Assembly: GCA_002591745.1 (NCBI GenBank)
Contig: PDLQ01000001.1
Location: 124,001-188,000, forward strand
DNA length: 64,000 nt
Direction of reading: 5' to 3'
Origin: Lewinellaceae bacterium SD302
Lineage (GTDB): Bacteria; Bacteroidota; Bacteroidia; Chitinophagales; Saprospiraceae
In this document: positions 1,296-59,064 of the stretch, piece by piece
How positions within the stretch are numbered: the stretch's first letter is position 1
Layout of the letters: the number at the start of each line of letters is the position of its first letter
The notes under the pieces: model-generated
Seen by the model: the letters and a program-made list of their open reading frames with translations, nothing else
Database searches by the model: none
Told to the model about the DNA's origin: nothing
Program-made: the position numbers and the translations under genes

Positions 1296-2786
1296 CTAAA
1301 AATGCAAATTCTCCAGGATTAGAAAATCAGCATTATTACGGTTTTCGCCTGCTTTACCCCTGAGCAGAAAAGGGTAATTACCCAGCATCAGGTCCAGGTC
1401 TCCGTCTTCGTCAAAGTCGCCTTTTTCCATGGTCAGCCAGTTGCCGTCAGCTGCAAGGGGCGTAGTCATTGTAGTGAAGTCGTAGGTGGACTCATCTTCG
1501 TTGCGGAGGTAGACGAGGCCCTCTTCGGGCGAATGATTAAAATCGGGGAAGAAGGCAAGGACTGCGAAATCGAGGTCGCCGTCCTGGTCGAAGTCATCAG
1601 CCTCCAGACGGGTAGCGCCGTAGATGGGGTAAAACCAGGCTTCGTCGAAATCGTCTTCACCACCGTTCAGGTAAAGACGGATACCGTGATAAGGTTTTAG
1701 AAAATTTGAATAATCGGCGTTGTCACCGTTGGCAATCACGATATCAAGATGACCGTCCCGATCATAATCCACCAGTTCAAACCAGCTGGACCCATGCTGC
1801 GGTGGCAGTTCGATAGGCTTTGCTACTTTGAAGCCAAAATCCTCTTGTTGGTAGAAAATGTAAATACCCTCCTGACCCTGGGAGAAGAGAGCGATGATGT
1901 CCAGTCGCCCATCGTGATCCATATCCGCCAACTCTACTTTTATACTGCCGGGGAGCGGAAGTAAGGTGCCCTTTTTATAGCCTTCCGCCGTCTTTGAAAT
2001 CAGAGAAAGTGCTCCCGTATGATAACCGAATTCACAAACGATGATCTCTTCGTTTCCATCTTCGTCCAGGTCGGCCGGAAGTACGTAGACGGGGCGATGT
2101 AGTTTTTCTGCCAAAACCTTCGGGATACTGTCTTCAACCAGGTGGAGTTTTCCGGAAGGAATCTGGCTGGGTGCCATATTTCCAATCTCCGTCAAGTAAA
2201 GTCGTTCCTCGTAGACCTGTGCGGCAACGGTGGGAGTAGGAAAGCGAGCCTTTTCATGTAATGTGTCCAACCTAACGAATATCCTTCCCGAAAGGTCGCA
2301 GATGAGGGTGCCTTCCTTGTTTTCAGCATGCAAAATCCCGGTAACGGCTTCAATTTTTTTGTTGGCTATCAAAGTAGCAGTGAATCCTTCCAGCCGTTGA
2401 TTACGACTGCTCCGTAATGTATCAACTACAATCTCCTCCGGCGCTAGACTCAAGACATAATCGTGGATTTCCCACCAATCCGAGCTGTCGATCAGCGGAA
2501 CTTCGGGATATACATTACTCTGTTGGGTATAGAATTCTTCTTCCATCGAGCCATTGACGGCTTGGTAACCTTGATATTTAAACCCAAGCCTAGCGGCCAT
2601 TTCAGGCAGTACACTCTCGCGCCAGACAGCGGCTGGAATACTGGAAGGATCCGGGAGTAAATGACAGTTTCCGCAATATTGCTCGTATTTGCCACTGGTA
2701 CTTTCGGTGAGCCGGCATTGGGAGAGGGAGCCGACCAGGATCAGTAGAAGTGGGGTTAGGACCGCGAATTTTAGAGAGATATTCAT
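1296..2786 (-). CDS. FG-GAP/VCBS-repeat lipoprotein with N-terminal CxxCH motif
   Basis: A 496-residue exported lipoprotein. The signal peptide ends in a lipobox with Cys24 (SLSQC). Close behind, CGNCH at residues 38-42 is a c-type heme attachment motif. The rest carries FG-GAP/VCBS repeats with calcium-loop signatures such as DLDEDGNEE, DMDHDGRLD, DYDRDGHLD, DFDQDGDLD (about 398) and DFDEDGDLD (about 457), which suggests a seven-bladed propeller at the cell surface. One CxxCH with no obvious second one suggests a mono-heme or vestigial cytochrome region. It lies downstream of the LytTR regulator on the same strand. The start at 2784-2786 is the only ATG that keeps the signal peptide. Function unknown; binding or electron transfer are guesses. 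Two copies of the dispersed GCTACTTTG motif lie inside it. Confidence 0.8.
   Translation of the reverse strand: MNISLKFAVLTPLLLILVGSLSQCRLTESTSGKYEQYCGNCHLLPDPSSIPAAVWRESVLPEMAARLGFKYQGYQAVNGSMEEEFYTQQSNVYPEVPLIDSSDWWEIHDYVLSLAPEEIVVDTLRSSRNQRLEGFTATLIANKKIEAVTGILHAENKEGTLICDLSGRIFVRLDTLHEKARFPTPTVAAQVYEERLYLTEIGNMAPSQIPSGKLHLVEDSIPKVLAEKLHRPVYVLPADLDEDGNEEIIVCEFGYHTGALSLISKTAEGYKKGTLLPLPGSIKVELADMDHDGRLDIIALFSQGQEGIYIFYQQEDFGFKVAKPIELPPQHGSSWFELVDYDRDGHLDIVIANGDNADYSNFLKPYHGIRLYLNGGEDDFDEAWFYPIYGATRLEADDFDQDGDLDFAVLAFFPDFNHSPEEGLVYLRNEDESTYDFTTMTTPLAADGNWLTMEKGDFDEDGDLDLMLGNYPFLLRGKAGENRNNADFLILENLHF
1822..1835 (+). repeat. Dispersed motif copy 1 (GCTACTTTGAAGCC)
   Basis: Short-arm form of the window-wide motif, inside the FG-GAP gene and antisense to it; the gene reads the region as FKVA. 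Confidence 0.7.
2364..2378 (-). repeat. Dispersed motif copy 2 (GCTACTTTGATAGCC)
   Basis: Inside the FG-GAP gene in sense orientation, read as ATLIA. Confidence 0.7.
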
Positions 2787-2798
2787 ACGAGAGGCCTT

Positions 2799-2820
2799 CG
2801 GCTAGCGACCTCCCGGTCGC
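2799..2820. repeat. REP-like hairpin, copy 1
   Basis: The sequence GGCTAGCGACCTCCCGGTCG plus a final C contains a 6-bp stem (GCGACC/GGTCGC) with a 4-nt loop. Identical 21-mers occur at 14807-14827 and 47287-47307. This copy sits 13 bp ahead of the FG-GAP gene start. About 30 bp downstream a CGCGGATT stretch is shared with copy 2. Confidence 0.7.
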
Positions 2821-2931
2821 TCTGGTTAGATTTTGGGACGCGGATTTTCTGGATATACGCGGATTGCTGGTAACGGCTTCGGCGTGCTTGGTTTTTCTGG
2901 CAATTCAGGCATGGAGGAATAATGTTGTTAA

Positions 2932-3005
2932 CTGACCTTACGCAAACCGTGGCTCACCCCTACTAGCCCCCAAAGGGGGAGTGGCCAAGATTTGCGTAAG
3001 GTCAG
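2932..3005. repeat. 74-bp element with 15-bp perfect inverted ends
   Basis: The arms CTGACCTTACGCAAA (2932-2946) and its exact complement (2991-3005) bracket an inner hairpin CCCCC-AAA-GGGGG (2967-2979). It lies 36 bp beyond the LytTR gene stop and could be a miniature mobile element, a REP-type sequence or a terminator. No convincing target-site duplication is visible. Confidence 0.65.
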
Positions 3006-3041
3006 AATCAGCAACCCAACAACTCTCCATCCAACAACTTC

Positions 3042-4883: not shown

Positions 4884-5210
4884 CTAACGCCAAGATATAT
4901 AACCCGGTTGGATTTGATGGTGCTCAATTCGATCAACGCTAGCACGCGACCGATGGATGGCAGGATGAAACGTTTTTTGGCTAACAACTCCTTTGAGTTT
5001 GCGACGATCACCGAAAGTTAAGTAGCAATGTTCTTGGCAGCGTTAGCCGGATACTCTCCGGGGTAAAGTGATGTAATGTAAGAATAGACCGGTTCGCTTC
5101 TCGACTGAGGACCAGGTTTACCTTACCTTAACATTAGGTCCGCGCCGGAAAAGCTATCTTTGTATTTCCGTTCATTATCGTGCTTTAACGCAACATCCCA
5201 ATTACCATCT
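4884..5210. other. Divergent intergenic region, 327 bp
   Basis: Lies between the divergent kinase gene and the giant adhesin gene. The only recognisable element is the TATCTTTG promoter box at 5155-5162. I see no repeat motif, RNA gene or convincing small ORF. Confidence 0.5.
5155..5162 (+). promoter_or_regulatory. Bacteroidota -7 box TATCTTTG for the adhesin gene
   Basis: An exact match to the Bacteroidota sigma-A -7 element TAnnTTTG. It lies 48 bp before the ATG at 5211 and overlaps the alternative TTG at 5160, which argues against that TTG as start. Confidence 0.7.
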
Positions 5211-8200
5211 ATGCGTCAGTTCGCCGCTCGCCTCTTTGCTCGTGCTATTCACCGACACTGCTACTTTGTTAGTCCAATACTCGCCTTCCTCATATTGGCT
5301 ACCGTAACGAATCTCGGAGCACAGTGCCCAACTGTAGCAACCATCCTGATCGATGCCTGCCCCACGGGAATGGAAGAGAATAATGAGTACGTAATCATTG
5401 ATAGTGAAGGCGGGTTCAGCCTGGATGATCTGACGATCGATTTAGCGGCGGGCAATAACCAAATCGGAGCACTAGGCGGGAATAACGATATTAATATAAA
5501 CGTTGATAATGACCCGGCATTCCCTACGCCCTGTGGGCTGGAACCGGGTGACCTGAGTATCTATACCGGTGGCTGTAACCTGGTAGCGGTAGGGCCTGGA
5601 GACATTATCCCGCCGGATGTTCCGCTGATCATACAGATGTCGACTGACCCGACTCAGATTGTGGACCTCAGTACCCTTTGTGCCGGGGGACAGACCATCT
5701 ACGTCACCCGGAATAACTGTGACCGGTCGATCGGAGCTTTTACAAACGGTGGCTCGGGGACAAGAACGACCAATTTTGGTTTTGGCGGAGGCTGTAACGA
5801 ATCGGTGACTTACGATCGTAGCTCGCTTACGGGCGGCAATGGTGCTCATTACAGCCCCTGCGATGGAGGCTCTTACGGGAATGACGGTTGCAATAACGTC
5901 GTAGATGTGTCCAGTTGTTTTCCCACGGCTCCGCCTTGCCCGGACCCCATTACGCCCACTTTTGATATTTGTGCTGATGCTCCGGTAATCAGCCCTCCAA
6001 TTCCTCTGGCACCGGCTGTTTTTCTATTTCCAGGTGCCAGCAGCGTAACCTTCCACGAGACTTTTCTGGATGCCCAGAATAACGTAGACCCGATCTTCTT
6101 CTACGGTGGTTCCTCCACGATGCAAATCATGTTATTCGCCCGCGTCGAATATCCGGATGGATGTGTGGTCATCGGCGGGCTTACCCTGAACTTCATTCCT
6201 TTCGAAGGCGAGGCCGGAAATGATGCTACCCTGAATATTTGTTCGGGTGACGTTGTCGACCTGTTGGGAGCCCTCGGCCCCGGGGTGACGGCTGGCAGCT
6301 TTAATGATGATGACGGAAGCGGCGTAAATCTCGGAAACCCCAGCGCAGTTCCTTTCACCGGCGTGACAGGTGGTAGCTATGACTTCACCTATACTACCGT
6401 TGATGACCCCAGTACAAACTGTCCCCAGAGCCAGGCCACGGTAACCGTAAATGTGGCGTCAGCCCCCGTTGCTAATGGCCCCCAGACCCTGGCTGCCTGT
6501 GATAACGGAACCGGCGTTGCCGTTTTCAACCTGACCACCCTCAACAATGCCATTAATGGAGGCTCAGGCCTTCCCGTTAATTATTTTTCTAACCCCGCCG
6601 CAACGATCCCGATCCTAAATCCGTCCAATTATGCATCCGGTAACGCTACGGTATTCGCCGTAGTAAATGCTGCAGGAAACTGCCCCTCCAATACCGTGGC
6701 GATCAACCTGGTGCTAGACGGACCACCAACAGTAACCAGTACTTTCATAGAGCCCGACTGTAATGGCGCGGCCACCGGCTCCATCAATCTGACGGTAAGT
6801 GGCAGTACGGCTCCTTACGGTTTTGACTGGATACCGAACAGCCTGGACGGGATCGAAGACCCGACTAACCTGACGGCTGGCGATTATTTCGTTACCGTAA
6901 CCAGTGCCAGTGGTTGTGAGGTGCCCCTGGCCTTTACCCTCACGGACCCCAGCTTGCTTACGCTGGGGAATTGCCAGGAGATCACTCAGGCGACGGGGCC
7001 AGCTAGTGCCGATGGCGTAGCTCAGATCACCGTAGGCGGAGGTACACCCGGCTACACCGTAAATTATACCGGACCCAGTAGCGGATCAATTTCCGGAAGT
7101 GGGCCCCAGATACAAATCACCGGACTAGTGCCAGGTGACTATTTTATCACCAGCGTGGTGGATGCCAATGGCTGTACGGCTGCCCTGAATTGCTCTTTCA
7201 CCATTACGGCACCCTGTGCCCTTGACTTGACCTGTGAGGAGTTGACCCAGGCCAGTGGCCCGATGAACGGCGACGGCGTAGCCCGCATCACCTACGGAAA
7301 CGGGATTCCGAACTACAACATCAGTGTAACCGGGCCGAGTGGCAACCTGAACCTGCCCAATTTGCCCGGTGGTTTCATTGACATCACTGACTTGTTGCCC
7401 GGTACTTACAATCTGACACTAAGCGATTCAGACCCGAATAACTGCCAGGCGACCTGCCAGTTTACCATCACCGCCGCTGCCCAGCAATGCAACCTGATGG
7501 TGAGTGAGCAAACAAATGATATTAGTTGTTTCGCTGCGGATGACGGATCAATCACTTTAATGGTGTCGGGGAACGTGAATCCGGTGCAAATACAGTGGTC
7601 GGTAGCCGGTTTCGATAACCAATTGACCGCCAATGGCCTGGCTCCTAACACTTATTCAGTAACGGTTACCGATCCGGGCGTGGCAAACTGTGAAGTTATT
7701 ATTACCGACATCGAAATCACTGAACCGGATGCGCTGCTACTGACCTGTGGCTCAGTTACTCCGGCTTCAACGGCAGGTGCGAATGACGGCAGTGTGGTCA
7801 TTCAGTTCGAAGACGGGGTAGGACCTTACGATATCGATTTGGCAGGGCCGACCGCAGTGGTCGCAATGGATCTTCCCGCCGGCTCGATCAGCATCGATAC
7901 GCTGTTGGCCGGAAACTATACCCTGACGCTGACCGATGCTAACGGATGTGTGGAAATTTGCACTTTCGTTATCCCTGAGACGAGCGTTGCTTGTGACCTC
8001 ATGGTTGAGGTGGATACCGTTATTCACGTTAACTGCCCGGGTGACTCCACGGGATATATCGCTCTGGATACCTCCGGATTTGTGGGAGATATGGGCGTTC
8101 AGTGGAGCACTGGAAATAACGAAGACTCCCTCTTTCTGGATAGCTTGGGTGTAGGGTTCTACAGCGTGACGGTTACCGACGAAGGGGTGCCGGGCTGTTT

Positions 8201-11200
8201 TGTGGTGATCGACAGTATCGAAATTTCGCCGATCGACACAAATGTTATTCTCGTCATTGCTTTCGAGTTTGCCCCGGCTTCGGGAGAATTCGTAGCTGAT
8301 GGCGTAGCCTACATCGAGGTTTTCAACGGTATTCCTCCCTACACTTATCAGTTGATCGGACCAACGGATACCATTATCACGGATACTTCTGCGAACCCTA
8401 TTTTGATTGGCAATCTTTTGCCGGGTGAGTACGGTGTGATTGTCAGTGATTCCACCCCATCTTGTGGTGGCCCAGATACGATTCCTTTGATCATTACCTT
8501 CATCAGTTGTGACATTTTTGCAGCGATCGATACGGTCTACGATGCGAGCTGCCCCGGAAACGAAGATGGTGGCGTCTTCATCACAGCTGATAACAATGGT
8601 GGCACATTCCTGATTCTTTGGAGCGACCCGACTTACGATGGAATGGTTTCCGCCAATGATCTCGCACCGGATGACTACAGCGTGACGGTGACCGATCCTC
8701 TGTTGCCGGGATGTTTTGAGATAATTAATTTTACCATCGGCGAGGGAGAGCCCCCCATGGTTATTTGTGACAATGACGTACAAACTTCAGGACCGACAGC
8801 AACGGACGGGACCGCCGATATCACTCTAATGGGAGGGACGCCACCCTATGATGTGGACGTGGTCGGGCCGGTGCCTTCATCTTTTACTGGTCTTGCTGGC
8901 CCTGACCTTACGCTCAATAACCTGAGTGTGGGTCTTTATACCGTAACGGTCATCGATGCCAACGGCTGTGCCAACAGCTGCGCATTCAACGTCAACTCAC
9001 AGGGCTGTACGCTGGACGTGGACGTAGTGGTCACCAACGTCAGCTGTAACGGTGAAGAAGATGCAACAATCTCCCTGATCATCAGTGGCAATAACGGTGA
9101 TGTGGACGTGGACTGGGACCAGGATCAGTACGATGGACAACAGGACCTCGGTAATGTACCACCTGGAATTTACAATGCCGTAGTTACCGATGCAGCTGGT
9201 TGCTCGGTGCCTATCGGCCCGATCGTAATCACCGATCCCGAAGTGCTGGACATCGCTTGTACCGTCGTAAATGATGTTTCGAATCCAAACCAAATGGATG
9301 GATCGGCCTACGGTGTGGTAACTGGTGGTACGGCCCCTTATGAAGTCATCCTGCGCCGCTTCGTCGGGATGGCCAGCATCAACGATACGGTGTCTCTGGC
9401 CGTAGCGGATACGGTATTCCGCAATAATCTGAGCGGAAGTTCTCCGCCTCAGGGCTACGAATTCGTGGTCGTAGATGCTAATGGTTGTCGTGACACTTGC
9501 GCTTTTTCTATTTTCGAGCCACCCTGTCCTCCGTCGTTCATTACCCAAACGATCACCGACGTTGCCTGCCCTGGTGACAGCAGCGGGCAGATTCAGGTAA
9601 CGGTGGTCAATGCCAACCAGCCCGTCAGTTACAGTTGGACACCTCTGCTGCCGGATACCAACGTAATCGACAACGTACCAGCCGGTAGCTACACTTTGGT
9701 TGCTACCGATACTTTTGGATGTACTACGGCGGATGTGATCACCGTAAGTGAGCCGCCCGTTGGTTCGCCCGTGCTGCCCTCGGTCAATTGTATGACCTTG
9801 AACGATGAGACTGTTTCCGGTGCGATGGACGGAACCGGTCAGATCACCGTAAATGGTGAACGCTTTCCCTTTACCATTGATGTGAGCGGACCGGTGAGCA
9901 GCAATCAGGTAGTTCCCGCTGCGGGAACCTACGATCTGGAAAATCTATCGGAAGGCACCTACGTGGTCTTCATTACTGACAGCAGCGGCTGTGTTTCGGA
10001 TACTTGTTCATTTGTTATCGGAGCGGGTAGTTGTAACGTAATGGTCGGCACTACGGTAACGGCCGAAGATTGTAGCGGCCCCGGCCAGATTGCACTGGAG
10101 GTCACCGGAGGCCTGGAACCTTACGATTTTGAGTGGAGTGAGCCACAGTACAACGGCCTGGATACCATTCAGGCACCGGCCGGAAATTATGCGGTTACGG
10201 TCACTGACGCTGCTGGATGCGAGCAGATCATCCTGGAAACAATTCCTTTGATCGATAATGCGCCCACACTGGATTATGTACTGCAACTGGGAGTTTGCTT
10301 CAATGATAGTTTACCCTTGTTGTTACAACCAGCTAGTGGCACGCCCGGTTACACTTATTACTTTACTACCGACCCCGGTGGATCCAGCAGCATTGCTACT
10401 TTGCCAGCCACCACCGATACGACCGTCTTTTTCCCCGCTCCCACGTTGATGAATGGAGAAACGACTTTCGAGATCACGATCGACAGCATGGTGGATGCCA
10501 ACGGTTGCACACTGATTGTAGGCGATGTAAACGAGGTGATCGTGAATCCTGCGGATACGCTCTTTTTCAATGAGCAACACTGCCTGAGCGATACCGTCAC
10601 CATCGAAGGTCAACAATATTTTGCGGGCAACTCAACCGATACTTTTTACGTGGAAACCGCAACGAGTTGTGGTTTTCTGTACCTGATCGACCTTGACTTC
10701 AGTATTCCTCCGGACACCCTCATCTTCGATGACCAACAGTGCGTGGGTGATACCGTCACCATTGAAGGTCAGCAATATTTTGCGGGTAATGCTACCGATA
10801 CCCTTTTCGTGGAATCGACAATGAATTGTGGGTTTGTGTACTTGATTGATTTGGACTTCAATGTAGCAATGGTCGATACGCTGGAAGAGATTTTGTGTCC
10901 CGAAGATTCACTGATCGTGGGCGAAGTAGTCTTCGACGGGAATAACCTGGAGGGACTGGTTAACCTGGGTATCCCTTCCGCAAATGGCTGTGACAGTTCC
11001 GTCTACGTGCGAATCGAATACCTGCCCGTACCAACCGGAACCTTTACGGCCAGTGCCTGTGAGGGTGATACGATTTTCTATGGCTCGGACTTCTACACTT
11101 TTGATGACCCCACGGGAAGTACGGTACTTGAAAATCAGGCGGCCAGTGGCTGCGATTCTCTGGTTTTTGTATCGGTCAATTTCCAACCTTCGGCCAGGGT

Positions 11201-12470
11201 AGAATTGGTGGGTGGAGACGCCATTTGTCTGGGAGATACGGCGATGCTGACCTTTGAGACAGCCAACGGCGGACCCTTTGATCTGACGGTAAGAGACGGA
11301 GACGGCAATACCTATAATTACGGAGGGGTCACCAATGGAGGCGCGTTCCCGGTGAGTCCGACGAACTCTACCATCTTTACCCTGGTGGACGTTTCCCAGG
11401 GCGGGCTGGGCTGTCCGATCAACTACTTCGGCAGCCTGGAAGTAACGGTCAGCCGCTTGGTGGGGCGCCTGGAATCCAGCCAGGATTTCGCGGGTAACCA
11501 AATCACCTGTTTCGGTGCCGCTGACGGCAGCCTGATCGCTTCGGTACAGGAGGGGGTAGCCCCGTTCACTTTTACCTGGAACGACAGTATTACCGGACCG
11601 GTAAGGGAAAATCTGGGGCCAGGGAACTACGAGGTGACCATTACCGACTCAGTGGGTTGCGAGCAGGTTTACGCCGAGAATCTCCAGGAGCCGGCGCCGA
11701 TTTTGGCTGATCCGCAAATTATTCCACCCGGCTGTAACGAGCGGGATGGTTTCCTGATCCTGGATACGATCCGGGGTGGGGTAGGACCCTATGAACTGAC
11801 CGTTGACGGCACATTCTACCAGGCGATCACCGGTTTCCCCTATCGTCAGCAGTTGCCTCCGGGAGCATACACCCTGGAGATCCGGGACGTGGCGGACTGC
11901 TTTGATACCCACGAAATTTTTGTGCCCGAACCAGCTGATCCGGAATTGCTGGTCACCCCGGACACCCTGATTCAAATGGGAGATAGTTTGCTGTTATCCG
12001 CGCAAACCAGTTTCCGACCCGACAGCATTCGCTGGGAGCCCGCCGGGATGGTGAGTTCGGTGAATACGCTGTCGACTTACGCGATGCCATTCGAAAACAC
12101 CCGCTTTTTCGTCACGGTAAGCGATACTACTGGTTGCCGGGCGACTGCCAATATATTCGTACAAGTAGATGAGCGTGTACCGATCTACGTGCCAACTGCT
12201 TTTAGTCCGAATACCGACGGCAGTAATGATCTTTTCCAGCTCTACGGTGACCGGGGGGTGGAAAGGATTAACACTTTCCGAATCTACGATCGCTGGGGAG
12301 AAATGGTCTACGAAGCCGAAGATTTCGATCTTACTAACACCGGCATTGGCTGGGATGGCAGACACCGGGGGAAATTCCTGAACTCCCAAGTTCTGGTATA
12401 TTACGTAAACGCTACTTTGGTAGACGGTCGCGTAGTGGAAATGAAGGGAGATTTAACTTTAGTGCGATAG
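5211..12470 (+). CDS. Giant SprB-repeat surface adhesin with gliding-motility/T9SS C-terminal domain
   Basis: A 2419-residue exported protein. The signal peptide covers about residues 1-38 (hydrophobic SPILAFLILATV, then LGAQ). The body alternates two modules. One is SprB-like, about 65-70 residues, each starting near CPGD/CNGE and containing DGSI...W and VTVTD; examples begin near nt 6761, 7528, 8034, 8550, 9045, 9568 and 11512. The other reads like SGPxxxDGxAxI...PGxYxLTLxD-NGC. A 53-residue tandem duplication lies at nt 10560-10877. The C-terminus from about nt 12187 (YVPTAFSPNTDGSND ... RWGEMVYE) is the gliding-motility-associated type-B domain that directs type IX secretion. The likely role is surface adhesion or gliding. 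The start is ATG 5211; a TTG at 5160 lies inside the promoter box. Three copies of the dispersed motif are within the gene. Confidence 0.92.
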   Translation: MRQFAARLFARAIHRHCYFVSPILAFLILATVTNLGAQCPTVATILIDACPTGMEENNEYVIIDSEGGFSLDDLTIDLAAGNNQIGALGGNNDININVDNDPAFPTPCGLEPGDLSIYTGGCNLVAVGPGDIIPPDVPLIIQMSTDPTQIVDLSTLCAGGQTIYVTRNNCDRSIGAFTNGGSGTRTTNFGFGGGCNESVTYDRSSLTGGNGAHYSPCDGGSYGNDGCNNVVDVSSCFPTAPPCPDPITPTFDICADAPVISPPIPLAPAVFLFPGASSVTFHETFLDAQNNVDPIFFYGGSSTMQIMLFARVEYPDGCVVIGGLTLNFIPFEGEAGNDATLNICSGDVVDLLGALGPGVTAGSFNDDDGSGVNLGNPSAVPFTGVTGGSYDFTYTTVDDPSTNCPQSQATVTVNVASAPVANGPQTLAACDNGTGVAVFNLTTLNNAINGGSGLPVNYFSNPAATIPILNPSNYASGNATVFAVVNAAGNCPSNTVAINLVLDGPPTVTSTFIEPDCNGAATGSINLTVSGSTAPYGFDWIPNSLDGIEDPTNLTAGDYFVTVTSASGCEVPLAFTLTDPSLLTLGNCQEITQATGPASADGVAQITVGGGTPGYTVNYTGPSSGSISGSGPQIQITGLVPGDYFITSVVDANGCTAALNCSFTITAPCALDLTCEELTQASGPMNGDGVARITYGNGIPNYNISVTGPSGNLNLPNLPGGFIDITDLLPGTYNLTLSDSDPNNCQATCQFTITAAAQQCNLMVSEQTNDISCFAADDGSITLMVSGNVNPVQIQWSVAGFDNQLTANGLAPNTYSVTVTDPGVANCEVIITDIEITEPDALLLTCGSVTPASTAGANDGSVVIQFEDGVGPYDIDLAGPTAVVAMDLPAGSISIDTLLAGNYTLTLTDANGCVEICTFVIPETSVACDLMVEVDTVIHVNCPGDSTGYIALDTSGFVGDMGVQWSTGNNEDSLFLDSLGVGFYSVTVTDEGVPGCFVVIDSIEISPIDTNVILVIAFEFAPASGEFVADGVAYIEVFNGIPPYTYQLIGPTDTIITDTSANPILIGNLLPGEYGVIVSDSTPSCGGPDTIPLIITFISCDIFAAIDTVYDASCPGNEDGGVFITADNNGGTFLILWSDPTYDGMVSANDLAPDDYSVTVTDPLLPGCFEIINFTIGEGEPPMVICDNDVQTSGPTATDGTADITLMGGTPPYDVDVVGPVPSSFTGLAGPDLTLNNLSVGLYTVTVIDANGCANSCAFNVNSQGCTLDVDVVVTNVSCNGEEDATISLIISGNNGDVDVDWDQDQYDGQQDLGNVPPGIYNAVVTDAAGCSVPIGPIVITDPEVLDIACTVVNDVSNPNQMDGSAYGVVTGGTAPYEVILRRFVGMASINDTVSLAVADTVFRNNLSGSSPPQGYEFVVVDANGCRDTCAFSIFEPPCPPSFITQTITDVACPGDSSGQIQVTVVNANQPVSYSWTPLLPDTNVIDNVPAGSYTLVATDTFGCTTADVITVSEPPVGSPVLPSVNCMTLNDETVSGAMDGTGQITVNGERFPFTIDVSGPVSSNQVVPAAGTYDLENLSEGTYVVFITDSSGCVSDTCSFVIGAGSCNVMVGTTVTAEDCSGPGQIALEVTGGLEPYDFEWSEPQYNGLDTIQAPAGNYAVTVTDAAGCEQIILETIPLIDNAPTLDYVLQLGVCFNDSLPLLLQPASGTPGYTYYFTTDPGGSSSIATLPATTDTTVFFPAPTLMNGETTFEITIDSMVDANGCTLIVGDVNEVIVNPADTLFFNEQHCLSDTVTIEGQQYFAGNSTDTFYVETATSCGFLYLIDLDFSIPPDTLIFDDQQCVGDTVTIEGQQYFAGNATDTLFVESTMNCGFVYLIDLDFNVAMVDTLEEILCPEDSLIVGEVVFDGNNLEGLVNLGIPSANGCDSSVYVRIEYLPVPTGTFTASACEGDTIFYGSDFYTFDDPTGSTVLENQAASGCDSLVFVSVNFQPSARVELVGGDAICLGDTAMLTFETANGGPFDLTVRDGDGNTYNYGGVTNGGAFPVSPTNSTIFTLVDVSQGGLGCPINYFGSLEVTVSRLVGRLESSQDFAGNQITCFGAADGSLIASVQEGVAPFTFTWNDSITGPVRENLGPGNYEVTITDSVGCEQVYAENLQEPAPILADPQIIPPGCNERDGFLILDTIRGGVGPYELTVDGTFYQAITGFPYRQQLPPGAYTLEIRDVADCFDTHEIFVPEPADPELLVTPDTLIQMGDSLLLSAQTSFRPDSIRWEPAGMVSSVNTLSTYAMPFENTRFFVTVSDTTGCRATANIFVQVDERVPIYVPTAFSPNTDGSNDLFQLYGDRGVERINTFRIYDRWGEMVYEAEDFDLTNTGIGWDGRHRGKFLNSQVLVYYVNATLVDGRVVEMKGDLTLVR
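5260..5274 (+). repeat. Dispersed motif copy 3 (GCTACTTTGTTAGTC)
   Basis: Sense orientation within the adhesin signal-peptide codons, read as CYFVS. Confidence 0.7.
10395..10409 (+). repeat. Dispersed motif copy 4 (GCTACTTTGCCAGCC)
   Basis: Sense orientation inside the adhesin gene, read as ATLPA. Confidence 0.7.
10560..10877 (+). repeat. In-frame tandem duplication, 2 x 159 bp
   Basis: Two adjacent 53-residue units in the adhesin share DTVTIEGQQYFAGN and CGF-YLIDLDF. DNA identity is high (for example the segment coding DTVTIEGQQYFAGN), which indicates a fairly recent duplication. Confidence 0.8.
12411..12425 (+). repeat. Dispersed motif copy 5 (GCTACTTTGGTAGAC)
   Basis: Near the adhesin 3' end, read as ATLVD in the C-terminal sorting domain. 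The last three bases deviate from the consensus. Confidence 0.6.
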
Positions 12471-12473
12471 TCC

Positions 12474-15006: not shown

Positions 15007-16440
15007 TTAAAATTTCCAGGCCGCTCCCAAATCAGTAGACCATACCGCCGGCCGGCTAATCAGCGCATTGGTACTGTTTTCCATCCAGTTAGAGATAAAA
15101 CGCTGGTACTGCCCGCCGAGAGTGACGCTGAGGTTGTTCGTCAAGCGATAACCAACGCGGAGGCCACCGGCGGCTGCCAGGGTCAGGCCCATACGGTAAC
15201 TGACGAAAGATTCTGCGCCGAGGGTAACCACATCACCGTTGCGGTCGAAGGTACGGCCTTCCAATTCACGACTGATGGAAGCCGCCAGACCGCCGGTCAA
15301 AGCCAGGTTGAAGCGACCGAAACCGAATTCGTAACCCAGGTAAACGGGTATTTCCAGTGAAGTATAACGGTTATAATGACGGACGCGCCGTAACTGATGT
15401 ACGGTTAGCATTGTATCCCCAAACTGCTGATTGGTGGTGTCCCCGGTAATGGGGTCTTCGTTGAAACGAAGGAGGACCATCGAGCCAAGTCGGTTGATGG
15501 TAGATTGCGCCTCGGTATCCAGGCGGGTGCGGTAGGTCTTATAATCGAAACCGGAGCCGACGAACAAGTTCGGTGCAAAACCACTTTCTATGCGTGCGGA
15601 AAAATGGGTGCCGGGATCAGCATACTCGGATTCCTGTCGAAGCATGACAAAATTTGCGTCGGCTCCCCGGTAGTTACCGGAGAACCAGTTCAGGCCACCT
15701 CCTAACTGAACACGGAGATAAGGCTTAAATGCCGTCTTGGCGGGATGAAGTTCCGGATTCTGCTCGGCTATCTTGGGCTCGATGGCTATCGGGGGTAAGT
15801 GTAAAAGGTACTTAAGTTGATCGATTTGATCTGCGACCGTAGCGAGGGACGAGGGTGTTACAACAGCCGAAAAGACGGATTTCTTATCCTCCGGGCTGGC
15901 TGAGATTACCGGAGTGATGTCTTTGGTCGACTCAATATCATGCTTATGATCATTTGTGGATAATGTATGATTGAGCTTTCTTTCATCAAAAGGAGGGGCC
16001 TCGGCAAAAGCTGGTTGACTGTCAATAGTCGTGTGCTGAAACGGTGCTGAGGTAGAATTCTGGTGTTGGGTAGTAGAAGACGGATCGGCCTTGAGCGTCT
16101 CTAAATCAGTTTCGCTGGTTGCGGGAACGGAAGTATTATGATCTGTGGCATCAGCACTGCTACTTTGATAGCCATCATTATCCATTTGAAGATCGCTCAA
16201 AGGCTGGTGAGCAATATCCGTTTCGGTGGGTGAAAAGGACCACCAACCAATGCCCATGCCACCGAGCAGTAGCAGGGGGAATAACCAGAAGATAAAACGA
16301 CGTTTACGCTTACGAGCCTGGATAACGGCCATTTTATTCAGAATGCCGTCTTCCATAGCTTCCCACTTAAGCGACTTCGGCAGGGGAAGATCGTTGGGGA
16401 ACAGGTCGTCGTCCTCGTAATGTTGGTCCGGTGGCGTCAT
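15007..16440 (-). CDS. Membrane-anchored outer-membrane-barrel-like protein, putative anti-sigma partner
   Basis: 477 residues. The N-terminus is acidic and soluble (about 1-42), followed by a KRKRR stop-transfer cluster and one membrane helix at about 49-67. A long Ser/Thr/Asp-rich linker follows, and from about residue 250 a C-terminal domain with alternating hydrophobic strands and Gly/aromatic turns resembling a PorT/OMP_b-brl barrel. The ATG overlaps the stop of the ECF sigma gene by 4 bp, so translation is coupled. Position and N-terminal topology suggest an anti-sigma or signal-transducing partner, although no classical zinc anti-sigma motif is seen. An inner-membrane helix joined to an outer-membrane-type barrel in one chain is odd. 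Confidence 0.65.
   Translation of the reverse strand: MTPPDQHYEDDDLFPNDLPLPKSLKWEAMEDGILNKMAVIQARKRKRRFIFWLFPLLLLGGMGIGWWSFSPTETDIAHQPLSDLQMDNDGYQSSSADATDHNTSVPATSETDLETLKADPSSTTQHQNSTSAPFQHTTIDSQPAFAEAPPFDERKLNHTLSTNDHKHDIESTKDITPVISASPEDKKSVFSAVVTPSSLATVADQIDQLKYLLHLPPIAIEPKIAEQNPELHPAKTAFKPYLRVQLGGGLNWFSGNYRGADANFVMLRQESEYADPGTHFSARIESGFAPNLFVGSGFDYKTYRTRLDTEAQSTINRLGSMVLLRFNEDPITGDTTNQQFGDTMLTVHQLRRVRHYNRYTSLEIPVYLGYEFGFGRFNLALTGGLAASISRELEGRTFDRNGDVVTLGAESFVSYRMGLTLAAAGGLRVGYRLTNNLSVTLGGQYQRFISNWMENSTNALISRPAVWSTDLGAAWKF
16159..16173 (+). repeat. Dispersed motif copy 6 (GCTACTTTGATAGCC)
   Basis: Antisense within the linker region of the barrel-like gene, which reads it as GYQSS. Confidence 0.7.
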
Positions 16441-20281: not shown

Positions 20282-20564
20282 AGTATTCCAAGGAGTGCCT
20301 GGGCGCTCGGTGGGGTTGTTCGCCTTTAAGACGAGGTGAGACGGAGAAAAGTTACGCATCCCCGGTGTTTTAAGATGGTTTTAAGGCTTGTACACCGATG
20401 TAAGGCTGTAGGTCTTAAAAACGGGCGCTTAACTTTATAGAAGTCAAAATGATAGTGTCGTTAAACTACTTCTTCGGAATAAGCAAAAATCTGGATGCAT
20501 GATAACTACGTATCTATGAATAGGCCAACCAGCTTGGTCGCTTTTTTAATCAATATTCTGCATT

Positions 20565-21317
20565 ATGACTATCAATATTCGTTTCCTTCTCATGCTCCTC
20601 ACGGTGCTGACTCTCGCAGCTTGTGATGACGATGACGACAACGTAACCATCGATCCCGTTACCTTTGACGTAACCATCGAAAACATTTCTACTCCCGGCC
20701 TAATCGATACCGAACGGGCCATGGGTACCAACCCGCTTTCACCTCCCGTGTACGCTCACTTTATCGGAGAAGACCCCATGTTCACGGCCGGCGAACTGGC
20801 TAACGCCGGTACCGAAAGTATCGCCGAAGACGGTTTCCCCGATGCCATGGTCGCCATGCTAGCCGGCAACTCAGATGTGAAATCCAGCGGAGCAGTTACC
20901 TCCCCCGGAGGACCCGATGACGGCCCGGCTGTTTTCGCCGGAGAGTCCATCTCCTTCTCCATTACCGCCGAGGAAGGCGATAAACTGCAATTCGAAACCA
21001 TGTTCGTACAGTCCAACGACTGGTTCTACACCTTCAGTAACGGTGGAGTAGAACTTTTTGACGGCACCACGCCACTTTCTGGTGATCTGACCGACCGCGT
21101 AGTGGTCTACGATGCCGGTACTGAAGAAGATACTGCCCCCGGTACCGGCCCCACGATGGAACCCGGCCCCGTACAGAAGCCGGTACAGGATCCGGAGGCT
21201 TCTAACGTAGGAACCGCCGAGTCCGTCCCCGTGCAACTCGCCCGTGAGCGCCACCCCTCATTTACAATTCCAGACAATAATGCGGTCATTCGCGTTACAA
21301 TTACCCCGCGTTCATAA
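20565..21317 (+). CDS. Spondin-domain-like lipoprotein
   Basis: 250 residues. The signal peptide ends in LTLAAC with a lipobox Cys, followed by a run of Asp (CDDDDDN). The rest matches the bacterial spondin_N type: FDVTIENIS at the first strand, then ESISFSITAEEGDKLQFETMF and VQSNDWFYTFSNGG, the family's most recognisable stretch. A Pro/Gly/Glu-rich insert (around PGTGPTMEPGPVQKPVQDPE) precedes the last strand. These are surface-exposed lipoproteins of unknown ligand. The gene stands alone, with a strong terminator behind it. Confidence 0.8.
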   Translation: MTINIRFLLMLLTVLTLAACDDDDDNVTIDPVTFDVTIENISTPGLIDTERAMGTNPLSPPVYAHFIGEDPMFTAGELANAGTESIAEDGFPDAMVAMLAGNSDVKSSGAVTSPGGPDDGPAVFAGESISFSITAEEGDKLQFETMFVQSNDWFYTFSNGGVELFDGTTPLSGDLTDRVVVYDAGTEEDTAPGTGPTMEPGPVQKPVQDPEASNVGTAESVPVQLARERHPSFTIPDNNAVIRVTITPRS

Positions 21318-21367
21318 TGCATTCAGTATTACAGCATTTTAGATGCTCTTGCGTATAGCAAGTAACG

Positions 21368-25357: not shown

Positions 25358-25386
25358 GTTTTTTAATCATCCCGTTACAGAAACAA

Positions 25387-39509: not shown

Positions 39510-39523
39510 GACTTCAAAGTAGC
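39510..39523 (-). repeat. Dispersed motif copy 13 (GCTACTTTGAAGTC)
   Basis: In the divergent region between the pheA leader and the DUF4249 gene, oriented like pheA, 172 bp ahead of the leader-peptide ATG. Confidence 0.75.
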
Positions 39524-40616: not shown

Positions 40617-41447
40617 TTATTTTCTGTTGTTCATACCTTCCATGATCATTTCGCTGAGCCGCCGGTAAAGGTCGGCGTAAGCGGGCTGTTGATCTAATAG
40701 GTCCAGGTGGCGCTTCATGGTGGCCTCATCACCGCGCTGTGCCGCTCCGGTTTGCCGCAGTGCCGGCTCCGTGGCGTCGATTCTGGAGAAGGTGTTTTTG
40801 ATGATCGGTACCAGGGCTTCAAAAGGCACATTTTTTTCTGCGCACAGTTCGTAGGCGATCTGACAGAGCCAGGTCGTGAAATTATTACTGAACACGGCTG
40901 CCAGATGCAGTTGAGCGCGCTGCTCATTGTCCAGTCGGTAAGTGAGCTCGCTCATTTTACCTGCCCATACGGCTAGCTGATCTTCAAAGTTTGCATTATC
41001 GCAAAAATAGACCAATGGCAAGTCCTTCCACTCCGCCACAACCTCGCCGCGGCGTAGGGACCGAATCGGCCATAGCGCCGCCCGGATCGTGAAATAGTCA
41101 TTGATCTTGGTGGTCGCCGTGGCACCACTGGTGTGGACGATGGGAGTATCGGCCGCTATTAGCTGGCTCAGCCGATCACTGACGGAACCAATGTGATCGT
41201 CAGGCACGGCCAGGAAAACTGCGTCGAAACTAAGCGGACCGTCTGCCGTCTTCGCAAAGCCGGAAAGGTTCTCTCGGGTAAATACTGCCTCGTCGCTATC
41301 CTGACCGGTTCGAAATCCAACCTTGCTACTTTGGTAGTCAAAACGATCAATGTCCCGAGTCCAGACAGCTACTTTCAGACCAATTCTTTCCAGATTCGGA
41401 ACGAGGTGCCACGCTAGATTGCCGGTGCCGATAACTAGAACGCGCAT
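40617..41447 (-). CDS. Rossmann-like NAD(P)-binding protein with DUF2520
   Basis: 276 residues. A Rossmann domain (MRVLVIGTGNLAWHLVPNLERIG, then FLAVPDDHIGSV and VHTSGAT) is followed by a helical DUF2520 domain (HLAAVFSNNFTTWLCQIA). The fold resembles pyrroline-5-carboxylate reductase/6-phosphogluconate dehydrogenases. Exact reaction is unknown. It starts 11 bp behind ccmF on the same strand and is likely co-transcribed with ccmE-ccmF. Confidence 0.85.
   Translation of the reverse strand: MRVLVIGTGNLAWHLVPNLERIGLKVAVWTRDIDRFDYQSSKVGFRTGQDSDEAVFTRENLSGFAKTADGPLSFDAVFLAVPDDHIGSVSDRLSQLIAADTPIVHTSGATATTKINDYFTIRAALWPIRSLRRGEVVAEWKDLPLVYFCDNANFEDQLAVWAGKMSELTYRLDNEQRAQLHLAAVFSNNFTTWLCQIAYELCAEKNVPFEALVPIIKNTFSRIDATEPALRQTGAAQRGDEATMKRHLDLLDQQPAYADLYRRLSEMIMEGMNNRK
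41325..41339 (+). repeat. Dispersed motif copy 14 (GCTACTTTGGTAGTC)
   Basis: Antisense within the DUF2520 gene, which reads it as DYQSS. Confidence 0.7.
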
Positions 41448-44781: not shown

Positions 44782-44796
44782 GGCTGGCAAAGTAGC
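44782..44796 (-). repeat. Dispersed motif copy 15 (GCTACTTTGCCAGCC)
   Basis: Sense orientation, 17 bp ahead of ccmE, a likely leader or promoter position. Confidence 0.75.
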
Positions 44797-44996: not shown

Positions 44997-45010
44997 GCTA
45001 CTTTGAAGCC
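44997..45010 (+). repeat. Dispersed motif copy 16 (GCTACTTTGAAGCC)
   Basis: In the large gap between ccmE and udk, not close to any start. Confidence 0.75.
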
Positions 45011-50026: not shown

Positions 50027-51199
50027 ATGATCAAAAACTGGTTACGGCCACCGGACCTTTCCGGTATCGACCTGGAGACACTTCCTGACCATAGCGTCGG
50101 GAAAAACCTCCTCACTCACCAGCTGCGGCAGCGCGAATTGCGCAAACTTACGATTGGTATCGTGGGTTTAGACGCAAACATCGCCAAAAAGTTACGCGCT
50201 TCTTTCTATAAACTTGCCTGGGATTTCGATGACCTCAAATTAGCTGACCTGGGCGACGTGCGCAAAAATCACCCTGATTTCATCATTCCGCTTCTGCGCG
50301 AGCTCAAAAATGGTGGTATCCTTCCTTTGTTGATTGGCGGCGAAGCTAGCGGTTTTCGGGCACAATACCAGGCTTTTCAGGAAACGGAGCGCCAGGTCAG
50401 TATTCTAATGATCGATCAGCTCATTCGCCTGACCACCGATAATAACCGGGTGGCGGCCAACGTACTCAATCCCGCCGTCCACGCCAAACGCAAGCGACTG
50501 TTCCACCTGAGTCACATTGGTTCCCAGCGTCACCTGGTGGATCCGGCAATCTACGATCTGCTGGAAAGCCGTTCCTTCAATTACGTTCGCCTCGGCGAGG
50601 CCCGTTCCGACCTAAGCGAACTGGAACCGGTCATCCGTGACGCAGATCTGCTGGGCCTGGACATTTCATCCGTCACCAAATTCGAGGCACCCGCCCAATT
50701 CAGTCATCAACCCAGTGGCTTCGATCTAACGGAACTGACCCAACTTTGTCGTTACGCGGGGATGAGTGATAAATTGCAGTCCTTCGGTATCTACGGAGTA
50801 AATATGTTGGCTAACAAGGTAGCAGTGCCGACTAATGAAAGAAATGATGATGGCTTCGCGACGAACGATTCCACCACCAGCGACCAGGACATCAAGGTTA
50901 CCGCCGCCGCCGCCGCACAATTGCTCTGGTATTTCGTCGACGGTTTCGCTAACCGGAAGGGCGACTTCCCGGCCAGCAGCAAGGGCCTTCTTGAATACGT
51001 CGTAGATTTAAAGGACTACGATCCCATCACTTTCTGGAAATCTCCAAAGAGTGGCCGCTGGTGGATTCAGGCGCCTGCCGGCAAGAAAAACGGTGAAGAA
51101 CGCCACCGACTCATTCCTTGTAGTTATAAGGACTATTTGGACGCGGTGGAACAAAAAATACCGGAACGCCTGATTCAGGCATTCCGGCGTTACGAGTAA
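50027..51199 (+). CDS. Ureohydrolase-fold (arginase/formimidoylglutamase-like) protein with degenerate metal site
   Basis: 390 residues from ATG 50027; an earlier ATG (49967) lies within a TATGTTTT promoter-like box. The fold matches arginase-type ureohydrolases, but the manganese ligands are altered. Where active enzymes have GGDH there is GGEASG (104-109); where they have DAHxD there is MIDQLIRL (Asp130); where they have DxDxxDP there is LGLDISSV (Asp212). At most two of the six usual ligands remain, so hydrolase activity is doubtful. A Ser/Thr/Asp-rich insertion (around TNERNDDGFATNDSTTSDQD) carries a copy of the dispersed motif. A structural or regulatory role is possible. Confidence 0.7.
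   Translation: MIKNWLRPPDLSGIDLETLPDHSVGKNLLTHQLRQRELRKLTIGIVGLDANIAKKLRASFYKLAWDFDDLKLADLGDVRKNHPDFIIPLLRELKNGGILPLLIGGEASGFRAQYQAFQETERQVSILMIDQLIRLTTDNNRVAANVLNPAVHAKRKRLFHLSHIGSQRHLVDPAIYDLLESRSFNYVRLGEARSDLSELEPVIRDADLLGLDISSVTKFEAPAQFSHQPSGFDLTELTQLCRYAGMSDKLQSFGIYGVNMLANKVAVPTNERNDDGFATNDSTTSDQDIKVTAAAAAQLLWYFVDGFANRKGDFPASSKGLLEYVVDLKDYDPITFWKSPKSGRWWIQAPAGKKNGEERHRLIPCSYKDYLDAVEQKIPERLIQAFRRYE
50809..50823 (-). repeat. Dispersed motif copy 17 (GCTACCTTGTTAGCC)
   Basis: Antisense within the ureohydrolase-like gene, read as ANKVA, at the edge of its low-complexity insert. C replaces T at position 6. Confidence 0.7.
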
Positions 51200-52172: not shown

Positions 52173-52187
52173 GCTACCTTGTTAGTC
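52173..52187 (+). repeat. Dispersed motif copy 18 (GCTACCTTGTTAGTC)
   Basis: Sense orientation, 42 bp ahead of the Gfo/Idh/MocA gene. Confidence 0.7.
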
Positions 52188-57311: not shown

Positions 57312-57314
57312 GGT

Positions 57315-57328
57315 GGCTTCAAAGTAGC
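57315..57328 (-). repeat. Dispersed motif copy 19 (GCTACTTTGAAGCC)
   Basis: 3 bp behind the DUF4249 stop, opposite orientation to it. Confidence 0.75.
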
Positions 57329-57410: not shown

Positions 57411-57425
57411 GCTACTTTGCTAGTC
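57411..57425 (+). repeat. Dispersed motif copy 20 (GCTACTTTGCTAGTC)
   Basis: Sense orientation, 98 bp ahead of the WG-repeat gene. With copy 19 it forms an inverted pair 82 bp apart, the closest pair in the window. Confidence 0.75.
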
Positions 57426-57523: not shown

Positions 57524-58336
57524 ATGCGTTTATTTCTCTCTCTTCTATTTTTTTTGTCGTTCAGCTCAGGAATGGTCTATAGTCAGGTAGCCATACCTTA
57601 TCGCCATGGCAATATGTGGGGTTTTGCGGATGAGTCCGGCTGGATCATAATAACGCCGAAATATGAAGCTGTCGGTGAGTTTGTCAACGGTATGGCATGG
57701 GTGAAAAAGAAAAACAAATATGGGTTTATTAATCGCCTCGGAGAAGAAGTAATTAAAGCGAAGTACAAAGAAGTAAGTGACTTTGGCCTTGATGCATCAT
57801 TCGTACGTCGGGGCAATAAATCTTACTATCTGGATCGGCACGGTAGAAGAACCGTCTTAGGTGGAGTACGTTGTTACAATGAATTAATTGTGCATCACTT
57901 TGAAACTTATACGGCATCTGGCAAAATTGGACTACTTGGGAAAAGACTCAGATTAAGTAGGACGGGCAGTAAGGTTTTTGTCAGAGATACCCTTAAAGCC
58001 ATATGGGAAGATTTTCGCCAAGCTGATTCTCACCCGTTCGCCGCGGTCAAACTTAATGGAAAATGGGGCATCATCAAAAGTGATTGGGAAATGATGGTAG
58101 ATTACAAATATGATGATGTGTTACCCAATACATACCAAAATCTCCCGGATCATACCTTCGTCTACCGTTTGGAGAATAAATACGGGTTTTTAGATGAGTC
58201 GGGTGAAGTCTTGATAGAGGCTAAATACTATCAAGCCGAGCCATTTAACAAACGTGGTCTGGCCAAAGTTTGGCTGAACAAACACTATTGGGGCTACATT
58301 GATAAAACTGGAAGAGAATATTTTTTCCATGATTAA
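57524..58336 (+). CDS. WG-repeat protein, exported
   Basis: 270 residues with a signal peptide (FLSLLFFLSFSSGMVYSQ). The mature part is built from WG repeats (for example MWGFADESGWIIITPKYEAV, KYGFINRLGEEVIKAKY, KWGIIKSDWEM, KYGFLDESGEVLIEAKY, YWGYIDKTGREY), five or six units of about 30 residues. The middle unit is degenerate. WG repeats are common in Bacteroidota surface or periplasmic proteins; the function is not known. It converges on miaE: the two stops are adjacent. Confidence 0.85.
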   Translation: MRLFLSLLFFLSFSSGMVYSQVAIPYRHGNMWGFADESGWIIITPKYEAVGEFVNGMAWVKKKNKYGFINRLGEEVIKAKYKEVSDFGLDASFVRRGNKSYYLDRHGRRTVLGGVRCYNELIVHHFETYTASGKIGLLGKRLRLSRTGSKVFVRDTLKAIWEDFRQADSHPFAAVKLNGKWGIIKSDWEMMVDYKYDDVLPNTYQNLPDHTFVYRLENKYGFLDESGEVLIEAKYYQAEPFNKRGLAKVWLNKHYWGYIDKTGREYFFHD

Positions 58337-58942
58337 CTAGTGCATTCGATCACCCCGAACCTCCATATTCTTCAGCATATCCGCTTCATAGGCCAGGTAC
58401 TCGGCCCAGCGGGCATCTACCTTCTCCCGATTGAAATATTTGCGGGCCAGTTCGATGAAGAGAACGTAGTGACCGGCTTCGGCGACCATGAATTTGTGGT
58501 AAAATTTCTTGAGTTTATCGTCGCTGATGTGCAGGCTGAGCAGGCGAAAGCGCTCGCAACTGCGGGCCTCGATGAGCGCGCAGATCAGCAACTTTTCCAT
58601 CAGTTTGTCTTCGCGGCTACCGCCTTTTTTTTGAAAAGCCAGCAGACCGTTGACGTACTCGTCTTTGCGCTGGCGGCCGAGTTGTAAGCCACGCTTATCC
58701 ATTTCATCCAGGACGGCGCGAAAGTGACCCCATTCCTCAGTAACTATGGGCGCCAGTTCGCGGACCAACTCAGCGTACTCCGGATAGCCCTGGATGAGGG
58801 TGATGCAGCTGGTAGCCGCCTTTTGTTCACAATAGGCGTGGTCAGTCAGGATTTCACCCAGATCCATTTCCGCCAGGTTAACCCAGCGGGGATCGGTGGG
58901 CAGCTTGAGGTTGAGCATCTGAACGGTGGCGGGGGTATTCAT
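58337..58942 (-). CDS. miaE: tRNA-(ms2io6A)-hydroxylase MiaE
   Basis: 201 residues, a diiron ferritin-like four-helix bundle. Iron ligands of the Glu/His type appear in YCEQKAATSC, TEEWGHFRAVL, ALIEARSCERF and VAEAGHYVLF. MiaE hydroxylates the isopentenyl group of ms2i6A37 in tRNA that reads U-starting codons, and needs oxygen. Its presence implies an aerobic lifestyle. The neighbouring gap (58943-59072) holds short AATCATT-type tandem repeats. Confidence 0.92.
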   Translation of the reverse strand: MNTPATVQMLNLKLPTDPRWVNLAEMDLGEILTDHAYCEQKAATSCITLIQGYPEYAELVRELAPIVTEEWGHFRAVLDEMDKRGLQLGRQRKDEYVNGLLAFQKKGGSREDKLMEKLLICALIEARSCERFRLLSLHISDDKLKKFYHKFMVAEAGHYVLFIELARKYFNREKVDARWAEYLAYEADMLKNMEVRGDRMH

Positions 58943-58955
58943 TACGGGAAGGATT

Positions 58956-59040
58956 AAATCATTAAATCATTGGATCATTAGATAGCGAAGATATAAGTCC
59001 CTTGTCAATCATCCTAAAATCCAATCATCCAATCATCTTT
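58956..59040. repeat. AT-rich short tandem/inverted repeats
   Basis: ATCATT-type units (ATTAAATCATTAAATCATTG...) and, further on, their complement (CCAATCATCCAATCATC) alternate in this 85-bp stretch upstream of miaE. Meaning unknown; it may form a weak hairpin. Confidence 0.4.
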
Positions 59041-59049
59041 AATACCATT

Positions 59050-59064
59050 GCTACCTTGTTAGCC
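59050..59064 (+). repeat. Dispersed motif copy 21 (GCTACCTTGTTAGCC)
   Basis: Just beyond the 3' end of the YdcZ-type transporter gene, opposite orientation; CC variant at position 6. Confidence 0.7.

Follow-up and report, generated by a model that had tools for sequence, protein, structure and literature searches.

What maintains a short DNA word that recurs along a bacterial chromosome, within genes and between them and on both strands? The question is raised by a 64,000-nucleotide stretch of the genome of Lewinellaceae bacterium SD302 (contig PDLQ01000001.1, positions 124,001 to 188,000; called the window below), in which the word GCTACYTTG, generally followed after one or two bases by AGYC, is found again and again. 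A sequence-only reading of the window described an abundant chromosomal signal under selection at the DNA level, and named a Chi-like element, a segregation signal, an uptake sequence and a widely used regulatory site as possible functions. The abundance and the selection on DNA are supported by the present analysis, and an uptake sequence is the best fit among those functions. The motif is probably the DNA uptake sequence of the species, analogous to the DNA uptake sequences (DUS) and uptake signal sequences (USS) described elsewhere. It is taken as such because it has their hallmarks, namely strictly kept copies, an apparent origin by substitution, and dialects. On the best reading of the data, it would constitute a third, independent uptake-sequence system, located in the Bacteroidota and apparently lacking a type IV pilus ATPase. 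The likeness is one of behaviour, and no membership of the USS or DUS families is claimed.

The motif in the window

GCTACYTTG occurs 21 times in the window, compared with 0.78 copies expected from dinucleotide shuffles, and 0 of 100 shuffles reached 21. All 21 previously listed sites are found at their coordinates, and recounting gives the same 18 copies of GCTACTTTG and 3 of GCTACCTTG, with 14 on the plus strand and 7 on the minus strand. Gene calls from a simple hexamer caller, with no curated annotation, also agree in placing 12 of the 21 in intergenic DNA or touching a gene start and 9 in coding sequence. The list was incomplete: a 22nd site carries a variant sixth base. The second box, AGYC, holds at most sites and fails at 12411 (AGAC) and 22410 (AGCT). 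The GCTA...TAGC inverted repeat that was also proposed is present in this dialect as a weak dyad and was not seen in the dialect of the relatives; a strict palindrome is rejected. The copies are as follows.

1822-1835, plus strand: GCTACTTTG-AAGCC, short gap, coding
2364-2378, minus strand: GCTACTTTG-ATAGCC, coding
5260-5274, plus strand: GCTACTTTG-TTAGTC, near the called start of the SprB-repeat gene
10395-10409, plus strand: GCTACTTTG-CCAGCC, coding
10854-10867, minus strand: 22nd copy, base-6 variant GCTACATTG-AAGTC, within the SprB-repeat gene
12411-12425, plus strand: GCTACTTTG-GTAGAC, imperfect second box, within the SprB-repeat gene
16159-16173, plus strand: GCTACTTTG-ATAGCC, coding
20211-20225, minus strand: GCTACTTTG-GCAGCC, near the start of the DUF5686 gene
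22410-22424, plus strand: GCTACTTTG-TTAGCT, imperfect second box, at the called start of the EAD11 gene
28340-28354, plus strand: GCTACTTTG-TTAGTC, intergenic
32656-32670, plus strand: GCTACTTTG-CCAGTC, intergenic
33552-33566, minus strand: GCTACTTTG-ATAGCC, intergenic
36916-36929, plus strand: GCTACTTTG-AAGTC, short gap, intergenic
39510-39523, minus strand: GCTACTTTG-AAGTC, short gap, intergenic
41325-41339, plus strand: GCTACTTTG-GTAGTC, coding
44782-44796, minus strand: GCTACTTTG-CCAGCC, intergenic, divergent pair with 44997
44997-45010, plus strand: GCTACTTTG-AAGCC, short gap, intergenic, divergent pair with 44782
50809-50823, minus strand: GCTACCTTG-TTAGCC, coding
52173-52187, plus strand: GCTACCTTG-TTAGTC, intergenic
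57315-57328, minus strand: GCTACTTTG-AAGCC, short gap, intergenic, divergent pair with 57411
57411-57425, plus strand: GCTACTTTG-CTAGTC, intergenic, divergent pair with 57315
59050-59064, plus strand: GCTACCTTG-TTAGCC, intergenic

Genome-wide abundance and anatomy

The genome of SD302 (G000; other G-numbers denote genomes of relatives) comprises 5.48 Mb in 147 contigs. The form with the NNAGYC ending alone, GCTACYTTGNNAGYC, has 820 exact copies there and its reversed control has 2; the two strands are near balance (396 plus, 424 minus). The 9-mer as a whole is estimated at about 1,700 copies, extrapolated from 146 in 464 kb and 268 in 864 kb. Genome-wide counting had been proposed as the check on the claim of abundance, and the counts are far from random; a chance origin is rejected for the window and the genome alike.

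The consensus consists of two boxes, CAYTGCTAC[T]TTG-N(1-2)-AGYC-MnAA, across the genome. A fuller version from 143 copies in 464 kb reads RRCAYTGCTAC[T]TTG, gap, AGYC-M-n-A-A, and weak base preferences reach about -20 and +20 around it. (Sites too close to the end of a stretch were left out of the consensus, dyad, profile, close-pair and gene-context counts.) The gap is either two bases, of which the second is nearly always C or T and TT is commonest, or a single A. The 143 copies divide into 79 with the long gap, 32 with the short gap and 32 with an imperfect second box.

The first box is kept strictly. In 864 kb of SD302, 191 perfect 9-bp boxes stand ahead of the second box, while single mismatches number 19 at base 6 (C 9, A 5, G 5) and 5 summed over the eight strict positions; shuffled 9-mers occur there with a mean of 0.01. 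Perfect cores thus outnumber singly mismatched ones by 191 to 24, and by 134 to 36 in 720 kb from four relatives that use the common dialect described below (28 changed at base 6, 8 elsewhere). An excess of perfect over near-miss copies is described in PMC1626085 as common to USS and DUS and unlike the pattern at regulatory sites. When one change is allowed, the count of the kingDUS is reported to rise by 21% (PMC3630211), compared with 13% for SD302 and 27% for the relatives.

Dialects in the genus

The dialect found in the window has 0-4 exact copies per genome in 197 other genomes sampled from the order, a set that includes six members of the same genus (14 other members lay outside this search). 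A signal common to the whole order is therefore rejected for this dialect, and GCTACTTTG is so far a dialect of SD302 only. An extended 23-mer, of which about 47 copies are expected in SD302, had 0 matches in genome_contigs, which may omit this genome and those very near to it; one viral match of a 19-mer is taken as chance.

The relatives have a dialect of their own. In five of seven sampled genus members, a top dispersed over-represented word is CGCAGGTGC, that is, GCACCTGCG. Together with its second box, as GCACCTGCG-N2-6-CGCC, this common dialect has 20-1327 copies in each of the 20 other genus genomes (controls 0-8), with 101-1327 in 19 of them, compared with 4 (control 2) in SD302 and 0-13 in 147 genomes of other genera of the family. 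Among 150 family genomes, themselves a sample from a larger group, it is abundant in this genus only. The lowest count in the genus (20, control 5) is that of G205, which has a form of its own, TACCTGCGCTCCG, with 12 copies listed in 160 kb. Another word, GCTCCYGCG, is used besides the common dialect by G194 (671 copies, control 6), G068 (465, control 7) and G211 (186, control 9), and occurs 11-48 times in each of the other 17 relatives. In all, the motif is present throughout the genus in at least four dialects. No comparable word was seen in 40 kb from each of two other genera of the family, where 40-kb samples of SD302, G079 and G199 each had one.

The common dialect has the profile CnYTGCACC[T]GCG-gap-GCGCC-CnAA with a pyrimidine-rich stretch upstream, and this profile is alike in 38 coding and 56 intergenic copies (gap 4). 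Both dialects consist of a 9-bp box and, separated from it by a variable gap, a second box, with weak flanks around them. In both, variation in the first box is almost confined to base 6, and the flanking bases C at -4, Y at -2 and T at -1 recur. The same architecture, the tolerant base 6 and the flanking C, Y and T argue for one recognition system that would read the two dialects with altered specificity.

Two further repeat features may be recorded here. In the G200 sample (L063-L065), and in that sample only, several motif copies follow a G-rich stretch like CTTYGGGGGGTCGGGGGGGA, which gives the appearance of a longer repeat. G170 has 50-bp tandem repeats with TACTTCTACAT at about 2648-2848 of L049 and at 3457-3507 of L047.

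Origin and retention of copies

Comparisons between species bear on how copies arise. G209 is the closest relative examined for G079, with about 82% identity over the longest match, and 8 of 15 G079 sites can be aligned with it (the 7 sites with no alignment were left out). The 9-mer is intact in 6 of the 8 despite diverged flanks and is changed or interrupted in 2, and no clean inserted block is seen at any of the 8. Between G079 and G199 (ortholog pairs below 55% identity left out), three coding sites lie at the same codon in ungapped alignments of genes with 61%, 66% and 81% nucleotide identity, and the third of these has different base-6 variants in the two species. For coding sites in SD302, protein alignments with 20 homologues are free of gaps within 6 residues of the site in 13 cases; among the 6 homologues with at least 50% identity, this holds for 5. 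These samples are small. Since aligned homologues lack inserted blocks, copies seem to arise by substitution and not by insertion, and part of the sites seem to have been retained for long.

A dispersed mobile repeat, similar to REP elements or miniature inverted-repeat transposable elements (MITEs) and spread by copying, could account for the high copy number, the strict core and the inverted close pairs. Such a repeat is nevertheless very improbable here. The flanks have weak preferences only, no inserted block appears at the eight aligned G079 and G209 sites or in the 13 gap-free protein alignments, and the copies are old enough to be common to species with diverged genes. Moreover, no repeat of at least 300 bp at 85% or greater identity is present in 864 kb of SD302. 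The narrower possibility that the copies belong to a single mobile element family in this region, raised in the sequence-only reading itself, is rejected on the same grounds and by the spread of copies over the whole genome.

In G079 C34, at about 19,000-26,400 (L051-L052), a series of short and highly conserved genes, which we take to be a ribosomal-protein cluster, has no copy of the motif. Its counterpart in G199 has one, upstream of one gene.

Spacing, orientation and gene context

Arrangement was analysed with 532 sites found by patterns looser than the strict motif, in 864 kb of SD302 and 800 kb from five relatives. By gene context, 235 are coding and 297 intergenic, and the density of intergenic copies is 7.1-fold higher. 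The coding share of 44% lies beside values of 65% for Haemophilus influenzae and 35% for Neisseria gonorrhoeae given in PMC1939737. Coding copies in the direction of their gene are commonest in its first fifth (41 of 124); the uptake sequences of Pasteurellaceae are reported to be biased to gene ends (PMC2346458).

The intergenic excess would suit a regulatory element, part of the promoter, 5' leader or terminator of many genes, as would the tendency of copies in divergent regions to point to the nearer gene (65 of 96) and the potential of some convergent pairs to form hairpins. It is very unlikely that this is the role of the motif. Nearly half of the copies (235 of 532) are coding, some of these at the same codons in relatives, and in intergenic stretches between genes of one direction 84 copies run with the genes and 82 against them. 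On this balance a promoter or terminator is rejected, and the earlier suggestion of a widely used regulatory site finds no support. Two convergent pairs with short loops, at 10147/10194 of L051 and 12441/12488 of L070, are perfect or near-perfect potential hairpins and possible terminators.

Strand distribution bears on a second group of suggestions. A polar replication or repair signal, such as Chi or the FtsK-orienting polar sequences (KOPS), would share the abundance and the genus-wide conservation of the motif. It is disfavoured and exceedingly unlikely, as each genome has nearly equal numbers of copies on the two strands and the strands are intermixed, with 24 plus and 26 minus among 50 sites listed on 1.28 Mb of one G198 contig. 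The motif is also 14-15 bp long or more, has a variable gap and alternates in orientation. The Chi-like or segregation signal of the sequence-only reading is accordingly unsupported.

Pairs of neighbouring sites are not arranged at random (near-duplicate matches within 6 bp were removed from pair and spacing counts). Same-direction pairs closer than 2.5 kb number 67, compared with 141 (sd 8) in 1000 strand shuffles, and divergent pairs number 138, compared with 73 (sd 7). With stricter patterns, 0 of 32 pairs within 400 bp are tandem. The same-strand exclusion was first seen on 391 sites and recurred on 141 new sites from 400 kb of SD302. Spacing on one strand has a coefficient of variation of 0.65 and is more regular than random by a shuffle test, and the largest motif-free gap among 293 in 864 kb of SD302 is 11.0 kb, where about 15.9 kb would be expected at random.

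It may be that such sites are bound by a chromosome-organising or nucleoid protein, with oriented sites about 3 kb apart and alternating, which would anchor loops or set domains. This is the main rival to an uptake function, and the same-strand exclusion to about 2.5 kb, the excess of divergent pairs and the short largest gap all favour it. It is nonetheless unlikely. In each dialect, a change in the protein would have to be matched at more than 1,000 sites, and sites of regulatory proteins are described as having a relaxed consensus (PMC1626085), where near misses are rare in the present motif.

Another model, tentative and doubtful, keeps the uptake function and makes it directional. The system would be the first outside the two proteobacterial families, work without type IV pili and import mainly DNA on the 3' side of the motif. 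If import were one-sided, each strand would keep its own evenly spaced sites. Where another site of like direction lay within about 2.5 kb, it would be redundant and lost, and back-to-back sites would be complementary and kept. One species would have adopted an entirely new dialect, perhaps together with a new receptor.

Comparison with known uptake sequences

Enriched motifs for discrimination of own DNA during uptake are, according to PMC12616744, known only in the Neisseriaceae and Pasteurellaceae. The motif of SD302 resembles the USS of Pasteurellaceae, AAGTGCGGT and ACAAGCGGT, in many respects: a strict 9-bp core with weak flanks, hundreds to thousands of copies, coding as well as intergenic locations, perfect copies in excess of near misses, an origin by substitution, and dialects that follow subclades (PMC1626085, PMC12616744). 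It differs in that no kinship of sequence is seen, a second box stands at variable distance, copies on one strand exclude each other, the host belongs to the Bacteroidota, and no full-length type IV pilus ATPase was found. With the DUS of Neisseriaceae it shares dialects that are few bases apart and strictness across the species (PMC3630211). Two dialects in one genome are also reported there, a condition comparable to that of G068, G194 and G211. The DUS, unlike this motif, is one continuous sequence of up to about 13 bases with a CTG core, and has the pilin ComP as its receptor (PMC12616744). Paired USS and DUS form hairpins (PMC12616744), which some close convergent pairs here could form as well.

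As whole words, the four 9-mers had no match in the open-licence papers searched, and no uptake sequence assigned in the Bacteroidota appeared among the matches listed. Riemerella columbina, also of the Bacteroidota, prefers its own DNA, and in that study a k-mer search yielded A/T-rich words only and no motif was assigned (PMC7965970).

If the motif serves in uptake, a receptor on the cell surface would bind it on free DNA, so that fragments from the same species would enter preferentially and recombine. Biased import of this kind would rebuild mutated copies and spread new ones, a form of molecular drive that would give a strict consensus, even spacing and dialects.

DNA-import genes

Both known families take up DNA through type IV pili, with a minor type IV pilin as the known or predicted receptor. 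In the 21 genomes of this genus no full-length type IV pilus ATPase (PF00437) was found; pilins and secretins were not searched for. Short partial matches to PF00437, covering at most about 84 of 370 positions, occur in 20 of the 21, and 11 are just over the curated cut-off; these are probably other ATPases. Since no full-length ATPase was found, DNA would have to enter by another route. Such an alternative has been proposed for Riemerella, in which an outer-membrane barrel and a surface protein would be followed by ComEC, DprA and RecA. A screen in Riemerella anatipestifer is reported to have returned ComEC, DprA, ComF and RecA together with four proteins that have no homologues in known machineries (PMC8459023). 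Besides the first four, a predicted outer-membrane protein and a DUF5689 protein, the latter one of those lacking homologues, are described as required (PMC8459023).

Among the 21 genus genomes, DUF5689 (PF18942) has a match in SD302 only, coinciding, as a single case, with the odd dialect of that species. The gene encodes three such domains and lies at L134:5673-10601 (G000 C115) with an upstream neighbour of 933 aa, which has weak matches to CarboxypepD_reg and a TonB plug, both below curated cut-offs, and for which no full-length match was found in the other 20 genus genomes. The two genes resemble the Riemerella pair. The cluster also holds two MbnP and two MauG-type genes, neighbours that suggest another role, and the pair is therefore only a lead (n = 1).

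Weight of the evidence

Several observations weigh against an uptake function. Neither uptake nor competence has been demonstrated in the genus, nor has a receptor. The lack of a full-length pilus ATPase belongs here, and the ComEC that is present in the genus proves nothing, being widespread (matched in 10 of 14 control genomes). H. influenzae is reported to take up DNA independently of motif orientation (PMC1939737), and the same-strand exclusion and the divergent excess are thus unexpected; strand-specific exclusion would follow if import were one-sided, or if the sites served inside the cell. The orientation of intergenic copies is also not fully random, which an uptake role does not predict: copies are directed at the nearer gene end in 65 of 96 cases within divergent regions and in 57 of 82 where both genes are opposed.

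The arrangement and the history of the sites add further points on this side. Convergent pairs closer than 2.5 kb are not clearly enriched (81, compared with 73, sd 7) and copies are not in excess at convergent gene ends (8 edge sites dropped), so that the use as terminators seen in Haemophilus and Neisseria is weak here. The exclusion is absent below 100 bp in the new SD302 set (4 same-direction pairs, 2.5 expected) and weaker in G199 (20 of 60 pairs). Several sites in the G079 and G199 comparison occur in one species only. Finally, 18 ortholog pairs between SD302 and its relatives, 8 with SD302 sites (pairs below 50% identity left out), have at most 2 shared sites; a switch of dialect in place at each locus is not shown and is rejected on this count.

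If the motif is an uptake sequence, it would be a third independent case in another phylum, and would show that such mate recognition evolves repeatedly. A genus with at least four dialects would allow a search for the receptor by covariation, and the finding would draw attention to DNA import in the Bacteroidota, which is poorly known. Even if uptake is the wrong answer, a set of more than 1,000 sites, strictly kept, spaced by strand and divided into dialects, would be an unexplained chromosome-wide code.

Other features of the window and genome

Two genes of the window that carry copies of the motif, or adjoin one, have recognisable products. The gene at 5160-12470 encodes an SprB-repeat protein of 2436 aa with a CHU_C type IX secretion signal. 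The gene at 22416-23276 encodes a protein with the effector-associated domain EAD11; domains of this type occur in conflict and signalling systems. Elsewhere in SD302, simple-repeat tracts of the GACTCCC type are found at 8 places in 864 kb, among them L025 near 3,000 and L013 near 19,700, and also in L149, L152 and L138.

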